The notes beneath the pieces are model-generated. The model was not told where the DNA came from. It saw only the letters and a list, made by a program, of their open reading frames with translations, and did no database searches. From the IMG/VR virus record IMGVR_UViG_3300017963_000524, positions 1 to 34,866 of that record: a stretch of DNA of 34,866 nucleotides; one strand, given 5' to 3'. Origin of the DNA: a virus. Both the position numbers and the translations under genes were made by a program. Of this stretch, positions 26,709-30,271 are shown piece after piece (position 1 is the first letter of the stretch; each line of letters starts with the position of its first letter).

Positions 26709-27554
26709 TTAACCTCCCATCGCTTGAAGTTGTTCGCCGTAAACTTGCTCAGCTTCCATGTGCTGTTGCTTAGCCCGATTGATGGCGTGAACATAGATTT
26801 CACGTGGCATCTTACGGAAGTCATCGACGTTCCACTTCTTCTTTAGGAAGGTAGCGATATTCTGGCGCAAGGTATGGTTATCACCAAGCCATGCTTCGAG
26901 GTCGTTAAATTCCTCTTCAGTTATCGAATTGGGGGTTTGTGTCTCAATTGTCACCGTTTCTGAGACACAATCATCGTTTTGTACATCAGGTGATACACAA
27001 TCGTCTTTGTGTGCATCAATTGGTTCAATTGGTGTATTCAAAGGTGGAGCATCACTGATCTCACCCTGAACGTAACACCCTTTGATGATGTCAGGAAAAA
27101 GCTGTCTTGCAAGGCGACTCAACGCACGAGCAAACAGCATATCTTTTGGATACTTCAACCACTGATTGCGGTAGATTCCAGCTTGCTTTGCATCTTGAAT
27201 GGAAAAGCTCTCTACCCAGGTATCGCCGTTGTCTTTGCGCTTACCATGTAGGATGCAAATTGTCTCATCGGAACGCTTGTCTTTGGTGATGGAATGACCA
27301 TTCGCACGGATCAGGTGGTTCATCATCGCTGAGGTCAGCTCGACTTTTCCTTGCACGTAGTACATTCCGCCATTCAAAGCCTCTAATGGGGAAACCCCGA
27401 TAGATTTAGCCTTCTCGACGACTGCATAGATACCCTCGGCACCCATGCGTTTGTAGTGAGGCGCCTGCATAAGCATGCGGCACATCTCTTGTGTGTTTTT
27501 GATCTCAGCCATCATAAGCTGAGTATCTTCTTTTACAGTGACTTCGTTAGCCAT
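26709..27554 (-). CDS. recT: RecT-family ssDNA annealing protein
   Basis: A 281-aa protein. Core motifs: PLEALNGGMYYVQGKVELTS (56-75), a TWVESFSIQDAKQAGI segment (112-127), WLKYPKDMLFARALSRLARQ (132-151) and FPDIIKGCYVQGEI (153-166). The last part (about 205-281) is a helical C-terminal domain after a variable linker that repeats DDCVS twice. It anneals single strands made by the partner exonuclease. Start has AAGGAG at good spacing and overlaps the upstream gene by 8 nt. Confidence 0.9.
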   Translation of the reverse strand: MANEVTVKEDTQLMMAEIKNTQEMCRMLMQAPHYKRMGAEGIYAVVEKAKSIGVSPLEALNGGMYYVQGKVELTSAMMNHLIRANGHSITKDKRSDETICILHGKRKDNGDTWVESFSIQDAKQAGIYRNQWLKYPKDMLFARALSRLARQLFPDIIKGCYVQGEISDAPPLNTPIEPIDAHKDDCVSPDVQNDDCVSETVTIETQTPNSITEEEFNDLEAWLGDNHTLRQNIATFLKKKWNVDDFRKMPREIYVHAINRAKQQHMEAEQVYGEQLQAMGG

Positions 27555-28667: not shown

Positions 28668-28926
28668 GCCAAACAAACTGAGCAAGTTTCTCTCTGTTTG
28701 CTCGAAACCACTGAAAACCGCAAAGGAGTCCATTATGAAAACACCTAACTTGCAGCTCCAGAGAAGTTTCTCTCTGTTTGCTCGTACACAATATAACATA
28801 TCGGGAGTTTTTAACCACAGGAAATTTCCGAAATCAGCATTATATAGTGTAACTCTAGATTTTATAAATAGGTTCTCCCTCCCAAATCGAACTGACACCA
28901 TTCCTACGATGGGAGGTGCAGTATGA
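28651..28926 (+). CDS. Small unknown ORF coupled to the initiator gene
   Basis: A 91-aa ORF whose TGA overlaps the initiator ATG (ATGA), as seen for real genes in this genome. ATG 28651 has AAAAGGA upstream; an internal ATG 28735 has AAAGGAG and would give 63 aa. The protein is basic and polar, with no recognised domain. Two copies of a 21-bp repeat lie within it but in different frames, so the repeat is not a protein repeat. It could be a coding leader or a non-functional reading frame. Confidence 0.4.
   Translation: MRICLKPNKLSKFLSVCSKPLKTAKESIMKTPNLQLQRSFSLFARTQYNISGVFNHRKFPKSALYSVTLDFINRFSLPNRTDTIPTMGGAV
28684..28784. repeat. 21-bp perfect direct repeat
   Basis: Copies at 28684-28704 and 28764-28784, 80 bp apart, share 21 identical bases (AAGTTTCTCTCTGTTTGCTC then G). 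Reading frame differs between copies. They sit about 140 bp before the replication initiator gene; a protein-binding or regulatory role is possible. Confidence 0.85.
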
Positions 28927-29720
28927 ACCGCGATTTTAAAGGAATTTGGATCCCCAAAGAAATCTGGCTCGTTCCGGGTTTGTCTAAGATGTCCGTCATT
29001 CTATGGGCAGAAATTCACTCACTCTACAGCCCAAAACATGGTGGCTGCTATGCAAGCAACGATTACCTCTGTGAGTTCATAGGCGTAAAAGAGCGCCAAC
29101 TTCAAAAATACCTCCGAGAATTGAAGGATGCGGGTCTACTTGAGCAAAAAGCCTTCAATGGACGCTTTCGCATATTACTCGCCCTAGTACCGCCTCACGA
29201 ATATGAGGAAATAGAAGAAGAATTTGAAAATAGTGAGTGCGGGGCAGACCCGCATTATAGTGCGGGGCAGGGGTGCACTAAAGTGCGGGGCAGACCCGTC
29301 GAATCGTGCGCCCCCTCTATATATAAGAATAAAGAAGATAACAAAGATAAAGAATATGCGCAGACTCGCAAAAGCTCGTCTTCGCCGAACGCTGATTTTT
29401 CTTTTTCTTCTTCAGACAAGAAATTCATAGGAATCACCGACAAGGACCTCGCCGACTGGAAGGAAGCCTACCCCTACGCGGACATCCCCAAAGAACTCAA
29501 GAAAGCCGAGCAGTGGCTCTTATCCAACCCTTCTCGAGCACGCAAGAAGAACTGGCGCAAGTTCGTCACCCAATGGCTCTCCAAAGCCTCCGACCAAGCA
29601 GAGAACAAAGCCGCATACCGCGGATCCAAGAGTACAACAGGCAGACAAGGTAAACTCGTTATCGAAGGAGACTCCAAGAGCGACGGATGGAAACGAAAGA
29701 AGGCGACGGATGTTTTATGA
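28923..29720 (+). CDS. Replication initiator (lambda O-like layout)
   Basis: A 265-aa protein. The N-terminus (about 10-95) is a winged helix: LSKMSVILWAEIHSLYSP, CYASNDYLCEFIGVKERQLQ, KYLRELKDAGLLEQK. A low-complexity linker (about 100-160) covers 23-bp-period iterons and an AT-rich tract. The C-terminal domain has DLADWKEAYPYADIPKELKK and RARKKNWRKFVTQWLSKA, typical of phage initiators and helicase-loader partners. It is followed with ATGA overlap by a DnaC-like gene. By analogy with lambda O and P, it binds its own gene and recruits host DnaB through the loader. Confidence 0.82.
   Translation: MNRDFKGIWIPKEIWLVPGLSKMSVILWAEIHSLYSPKHGGCYASNDYLCEFIGVKERQLQKYLRELKDAGLLEQKAFNGRFRILLALVPPHEYEEIEEEFENSECGADPHYSAGQGCTKVRGRPVESCAPSIYKNKEDNKDKEYAQTRKSSSSPNADFSFSSSDKKFIGITDKDLADWKEAYPYADIPKELKKAEQWLLSNPSRARKKNWRKFVTQWLSKASDQAENKAAYRGSKSTTGRQGKLVIEGDSKSDGWKRKKATDVL
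29236..29360. other. Candidate replication origin: iterons plus AT-rich tract in the initiator gene
   Basis: Three perfect copies of AGTGCGGGGCAG start at 29236, 29259 and 29282, exactly 23 bp apart; GTGCG recurs once more at the same phase (29306). Two of them extend to ACCCG. Since 23 is not a multiple of 3, each copy is read in another frame, so selection acts on DNA. About 20 bp on, 29316-29357 is almost only A and T with purine-rich strand bias. Same arrangement as ori-lambda in gene O. Confidence 0.75.
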
Positions 29721-30271
29721 CCGCATGGAATGAATTTTGCAGACTCAACAACGCACCACCACGGCTAGCTAACGCAACCCTAGAGGTAAACCAGTTCATG
29801 CCACAAGAAAGAGCAGACGCAGGTCAACGATGGCTAGCTAACCCGAGGAAGAGCCTTATCCTTAGCGGAGACGTCGGAAGGGGAAAAACCTACTTCATGT
29901 GGGCACTCATGCGAGGACTCATCTCAAAAATGGGCATCCTGGCAGCCCGATTCTTCCGTAGCAAGAACATCGACGATCGGCTCCTGAAAGAGGTGAGGGA
30001 GTACGGATCAGCTCAGCATTTTTTACAGACCTTGAAAGAAATACCATTCTTATTTTTAGACGACTTTGGTGTAGAAAGAAGTGGTGAGAGATCAGAAAGA
30101 GAGTATTTCGAAATAATTGACGACCGTGTCGCATGGGAAAGGCCGATGATTATCAGCACCAACATGAACGACGAAGAGATATTAGCCTGCTACGGGAGCA
30201 GGATTCACTCACGCCTCAAGGTGTGCGTAGGGATAGATTTTGAAGGACCAGATTTAAGGAGCATAATATGA
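29717..30271 (+). CDS. DnaC-like AAA+ helicase loader
   Basis: A 184-aa protein from ATG 29717 (ATGA overlap with the initiator). Walker A is GDVGRGKT (51-58), Walker B is FLFLDDFG (111-118), and IHSRL near residue 163 supplies a sensor/finger Arg. This is the AAA+ core of DnaC/IstB-type loaders, slightly short, with a small N-terminal region (1-44) for binding DnaB. It would load host helicase at the origin in the upstream gene. The frame is open to an ATG at 29687, which would overlap the initiator gene by 34 nt and is less likely. Confidence 0.88.
   Translation: MTAWNEFCRLNNAPPRLANATLEVNQFMPQERADAGQRWLANPRKSLILSGDVGRGKTYFMWALMRGLISKMGILAARFFRSKNIDDRLLKEVREYGSAQHFLQTLKEIPFLFLDDFGVERSGERSEREYFEIIDDRVAWERPMIISTNMNDEEILACYGSRIHSRLKVCVGIDFEGPDLRSII

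Follow-up and report, generated by a model that had tools for sequence, protein, structure and literature searches.

Repeats and the origin question

The record of a virus analysed here (34,866 bases; this whole stretch is called the window) carries a replication initiator gene that contains tandem repeats running across its reading frame. The question raised by this locus is whether the repeated segment serves the protein or is itself a replication origin. We consider it very probable that the segment is a lambda-type iteron origin for theta replication, located in the linker of the initiator gene and bound by the winged helix-turn-helix (wHTH) domain whose codons precede it there. The coordinates are collected in Table 1.

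Anatomy of the repeat array

The original observation of three perfect 12-mers at a period of 23 bp was exact: AGTGCGGGGCAG was located at 29236-29247, 29259-29270 and 29282-29293, and the GTGCG described as in phase with these three full copies was also present. A search of both strands of the record that tolerated one mismatch found no further AGTGCGGGGCAG, and no second copy of the array was found within the window. The array gave a Tandem Repeats Finder (TRF) period of 23 and a score of 84, the highest TRF score of the window. Two GTGCGGGG pairs at 23-bp spacing were present in the window versus none in 100 dinucleotide shuffles. The codon phase differs between the three 12-mer copies (1, 0 and 2), which are translated as ECGADPHYSAGQGCTKVRGRPVESCAP; each copy specifies different residues, as had been claimed, and no peptide is repeated.

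The TGCGGG/CCCGCA inverted repeat described earlier was found to be perfect, and a second perfect dyad, with a lambda-like axis, was detected besides. Copy 2 is an imperfect palindrome with a deviating right arm, and only three copies of the array are full. The tract behind the iterons is exceptionally A/T-rich, its A/T content being reached by only 0.05% of the record's 42-base windows, but its earlier description as almost pure A/T overstated a content of 83%.

Table 1. Positions of the initiator gene, its domains, the repeat array and the adjoining loader gene
Feature	Position	Strand	Remarks
Initiator gene, 265 aa, HTH_36 (PF13730) replication initiation protein	28923..29720	+	Pfam and PHROG
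Recognition helix alpha3 codons (residues 57-69, E57 R Q L Q K Y ...)	29091..29129	+	AlphaFold2 model, pLDDT about 97 there
Wing hairpin codons (residues 73-87), motif FNGRFR	29139..29183	+	Model strands 73-78, 83-87
Iteron 1	29236..29258	+	AGTGCGGGGCAGACCCGCATTAT
Joint-centred dyad TGCGGG GCAGA CCCGCA	29238..29254	no strand	Perfect
A/T-centred dyad CCCGCA TTATAG TGCGGG, lambda-like axis	29249..29266	no strand	Perfect
Iteron 2	29259..29281	+	AGTGCGGGGCAGGGGTGCACTAA
Iteron 3	29282..29304	+	AGTGCGGGGCAGACCCGTCGAAT
Partial fourth copy (GTGCG in phase, 29306-29310)	29305..29315	+	
A/T-rich tract, candidate DNA unwinding element	29316..29357	no strand	83% A/T
C-terminal part of initiator	29370..29717	+	20% identity to L004
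DnaC-like helicase loader	29687..30271	+	phrog_50 5.1e-26

Three other sites were observed in the record. The site GAATTGAAGGATGCGGGTCTACTT (29119-29142), in the HTH coding region, holds a lone TGCGGG half-site and is unchanged in the relative L004 though the surrounding codons differ; it is possibly a distal site, or else due to chance. Upstream of the initiator gene, a perfect 21-bp direct repeat, AAGTTTCTCTCTGTTTGCTCG, lies at 28684-28704 and 28764-28784 (80 bp apart) and is perhaps a regulator-binding site. A 30-bp unit is repeated 1.9 times at 26961-27018, in frame and with a near-duplicated peptide, within a minus-strand ORF (26709-27554) with a weak RecT match.

The initiator and its neighboring loader gene

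The 265-aa initiator matched Pfam HTH_36 (PF13730) at 1.6e-10, as well as PHROG 270 (1.9e-12) and PHROG 2880 (2e-12), both described as 'replication initiation protein'. Its O-like PHROG matches were weaker (PHROG 678 'O-like', 2.6e-8; PHROG 391, 3.6e-6), and Pfam gave neither a lambda O nor a RepA_N match at an E-value of 0.1 or better. An AlphaFold2 model (pLDDT 87) predicted a winged HTH with alpha3 and the wing as placed in Table 1; the domain ends near residue 87, and the array starts just beyond. The best solved-fold matches of the domain were the RepA_N plasmid initiators 4pql, 4pt7 and 5kbj, the highest being 4pql with a Z of 10.7 (rmsd 4.8 over 102 residues), only barely above the generic wHTH proteins (Z 9-10) that made up the remaining PDB matches. 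Profile matches to 4pql, 5kbj and 4pt7 were weak (E about 0.5).

The DnaC-like loader gene directly adjoins the initiator gene; an in-frame ATG at 29717 in the loader ORF would overlap the initiator stop as ATGA if used. The PF13730 initiator thus stands beside a loader, and phage relatives share this neighborhood, which places it with the HTH_36 phage initiators. Repeats that follow the DNA-binding domain within the initiator gene, inverted-repeat units, an A/T tract beside them and a loader gene directly downstream are all lambda-type features. This architecture supports the claim of a lambda-like origin in the initiator linker, origin activity itself being inferred from it. The GC skew turns near 29-30 kb, but this turn is confounded by gene orientation.

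Conservation of the array at the DNA level

The initiator was compared with that of its nearest relative, L004. The HTH region (residues 1-90) showed 89% protein identity, with the same codon used at 37 of 76 identical-residue positions, whereas the array matched at all 27 residues and at 26 of the 27 codons (Fisher p = 3e-6). The codon comparison bears out the proposal that the DNA itself is what is conserved in the array, and not the linker peptide. After the A/T tract, identity in the C-terminal part falls to 20%. Since this drop occurs while the HTH and array are conserved, the HTH domain and the array seem to travel together, and the C-terminal part has apparently been exchanged as a module.

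Arrays in the linkers of relatives

An exact DNA pattern search for two units detected the same 12-mer pair in no other virus; therefore, relatives were gathered by protein-guided searches. The sample comprised 154 unique members from viral contigs, bacterial genomes and phage records, with 148 testable linkers. An array was called when a period of 21-24 exceeded a codon-shuffle null, and 322 other ORFs of the same loci served as controls. Arrays of this period were detected in the linkers of 71 of the 148 relatives versus 2 of the 322 control ORFs (p = 1.5e-39, related members counted separately): the period was 23 in 42, 22 in 16, 21 in 8 and 24 in 5. Another 19 relatives showed only other periods, mostly 12 or 15, and 58 had no significant array by the codon-shuffle test. 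Linkers that kept the peptide and lost the spacing had been named as evidence against an origin; the opposite was seen, with relatives losing both the peptide and the 12-mer and keeping the 21-24-bp period.

Among 49 non-redundant arrays, the array starts where the HTH domain ends, and the period is 22 or 23 in 43 of them; as neither number is a multiple of 3, these periods do not respect the reading frame. An A/T-rich flank lies beside 61 of 74 arrays. The tract after the iterons holds 12- or 15-bp A/T-rich in-frame tandem repeats of the AATAATACA type in many relatives (L049, L264, L077 and others); these might form a repeated element for unwinding or for binding of single strands. In Leptospira phage LE1, the linker of Orf5 contains AAAGCAG twice, exactly 23 bp apart (L260 2212-2241; deposited 5.3-kb replication fragment AF261714); the linker showed no significant array by the test, at most a trace.

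Tandem repeats arising by chance or at the protein level, that is, low-complexity linker coding with no DNA role, would be in keeping with the fact that linkers are often repetitive, and the A/T tract of relatives does hold 12- and 15-bp repeats of a coding type. This reading was rejected, and we give it almost no credence: it is contradicted by the shuffles (0 of 100), by copies that stand in three codon phases with no repeated peptide, by the conserved codons and by the 43 of 49 periods that are not multiples of 3.

Palindromic units and their joints

For 34 of the 49 arrays, the repeat units were more palindromic than column-permuted units at p < 0.05; the combined p was 9e-26. Two axes alternate: one is rich in A/T (AAAA, TTATAG), and the other is a joint that often reads GCAG(A) or ACCCC/GGGGT. 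The arms differ widely by member, namely TGCGGG in the window, CCGGAA in L272, CCAAAG in L011, CGTGAA in L340, GTTAAA in L041 and TTCGG in phage Skulduggery, and paired changes on both sides, from TGCGGG/CCCGCA to GACGGG/CCCGTC, occur within L005. The wing motif F-D/N-G-R-x-R goes with a GCAG joint (22 of 28 versus 3 of 21, p = 1e-5), an association that is clustered on the tree, where a single clade of 15 accounts for most of it along with a few lone lineages; it is a lead that may reflect phylogeny. GCAG and GGGG joints are mixed within one array of L309; the wing therefore does not strictly dictate which joint is present.

Half-sites and the recognition helix

Half-site similarity tracked recognition-helix similarity after the rest of the domain was removed (partial Mantel test, partial r = 0.22, p = 0.0004, n = 34). 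When the domain was scanned, the half-site correlation was highest at KERQLQKY, where alpha3 begins in the model, and a second peak of equal height lay close to the N-terminus. An axis-free 5-mer version with GC controlled had the recognition helix as its only peak (partial r = 0.19, p = 0.0002, n = 47), the wing being near zero; the rest of the domain correlated as strongly in this version (partial 0.21), so that shared ancestry explains part of the coupling. The Mantel correlations are modest in size. As an illustrative case, L277 has RQLQK in common with the window protein and AGTGC half-sites likewise, whereas L272, with a rest of domain closer to the window than that of L277, has a different helix and CCGGAA half-sites. 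Exploratory residue-tetramer links connected Glu at the K62-equivalent position with CGGA, and Arg at R58 plus Gln at Q61 with GTGC; none of the single links survived Bonferroni correction over 7344 tests. These comparisons suggest that changes in the arms broadly follow changes in the protein region predicted to read them, and phylogeny may contribute.

The self-complementary arms, which persist though their sequence varies between phages, would also be explained if the repeats were RNA or single-stranded DNA hairpins controlling, for example, translation of the initiator or the loader. We regard this as very unlikely: the strict 22-23-bp period and A/T-rich centres fit double-stranded DNA, no Rfam match to the repeats was found, and a hairpin alone would not predict half-sites that track a recognition helix.

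Comparison with known systems

In the lambda control, the annotated iterons occupy the middle of O at spacings of 20, 24 and 23 bp, and their dyads are of the TCCCTC-AAAAC-GAGGGA type. Each lambda iteron has been described as an imperfect inverted repeat that is contacted at its G-tracts and bends at its middle (PMC7466680), which fits the same plan as the units of the present family. Lambda O/ori-lambda and the window have in common tandem iterons with an internal dyad round an A-tract, placed between the DNA-binding and C-terminal parts of the initiator gene, then an A/T-rich tract and a helicase-loader gene. Lambda differs in its uneven spacing, its TCCCTC arms and the lack of a GCAG joint. 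The earlier comparison with lambda O is apt in architecture; the protein itself is an HTH_36 initiator of possibly RepA_N-like fold, with weak O-like PHROG matches and no Pfam lambda O match.

Among plasmids, the RepA_N initiators (pSK41) offer the nearest solved fold, though only slightly above other wHTH proteins. The Rep boxes of pSK41 lie within rep, and the linker is origin-coded and dispensable as protein (PMC5703833); a wHTH domain that binds boxes within its own gene, A/T tract bending, an ori-encoded linker and an exchangeable C-terminal domain make up a plan that the window would share. The window differs in having no Pfam RepA_N match and in its DnaC-like loader gene, whereas pSK41 Rep contacts DnaG primase. 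In pPR9, a pfam13730 domain and its DNA have naturally replaced a RepA_N domain and origin, and the mini-replicon replicates (PMC5703833); compared by description, pPR9 resembles the window in this N-terminal domain and in a swapped segment that covers domain and origin.

Phage SPP1 has direct repeats and an A/T-rich DNA unwinding element (DUE) inside the gene of its origin-binding protein (gp38/oriL), and the helicase loader gp39 takes part (PMC6316719). It resembles the window in these respects and differs by a second origin, oriR, the window being without a second array copy. Phages HU1, Skulduggery and GJ44 and Staphylococcus phage JK1 have an HTH_36 initiator with an array at the same in-gene position; the period by test is 22 in HU1 and Skulduggery and 23 in GJ44, and in JK1 the same layout with TTGACG arms was read by eye. 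They are unlike the window in their arms (e.g., TTCGG, TTGACG) and in having mostly ACCCC-type joints instead of GCAG.

These precedents also bear on the proposal that the palindromic units are mainly operators, through which the initiator autoregulates the replication operon inside its own gene while replication starts elsewhere. Proteins with a wHTH commonly repress via inverted repeats, and the same conservation and helix coupling would be expected of operators; nevertheless, the array starts about 310 bp into the gene, away from a promoter position, operators do not usually consist of phased tandem units with an A/T tract behind them, and in-gene iterons act as origins in lambda, SPP1 and pSK41. 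An operator role as the main function is thus improbable.

Proposed mechanism and implications

If the array is an origin, initiator dimers would bind the 23-bp units via the wHTH domain encoded just upstream, with recognition helices reading the inverted half-sites TGCGGG/CCCGCA that flank the A/T-rich centre. Copies about two helical turns apart would stack on one face of the DNA in an O-some-like complex, which would strain the adjoining A/T tract until it opens. The C-terminal part of the initiator would then recruit the replicative helicase with the DnaC-like loader from the next gene. The linker peptide would be a tolerated by-product of coding, so that DNA spacing is kept while the peptide drifts. 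Dimer binding, unwinding, loader recruitment and origin use at the array are steps that we infer.

Lambda O, SPP1 gp38 and pSK41/pPR9 Rep mean that this kind of origin is already known and that the array in the window is a new example of it. Less expected may be a spacing that stays at 22-23 bp while the arms vary freely and follow the helix, together with the GCAG joint between units; no description of fixed spacing with helix-tracking arms was found in the open-access literature, to which the search was limited. We tentatively suggest, as an idea that may well prove wrong, that HTH_36 phage initiators have co-evolved with the origins inside their genes as a lock-and-key series, in which dimer geometry fixes the period and the A/T centre, a few recognition-helix residues set the half-sites and the wing sets the joint (GCAG or ACCCC). 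Each phage would then have a private origin, and the recognition code would be readable from sequence.

Because origin and reader share one gene, many sequenced HTH_36 initiators bring their own candidate binding sites. They would provide dozens of natural protein-DNA pairs for testing how an initiator shifts its origin specificity without dying, a change that bears on replication compatibility and on module swapping among phages and phage-plasmids. For uncultured phages, a search for arrays with a period of 21-24 bp directly behind the HTH domain offers a way to locate origins.
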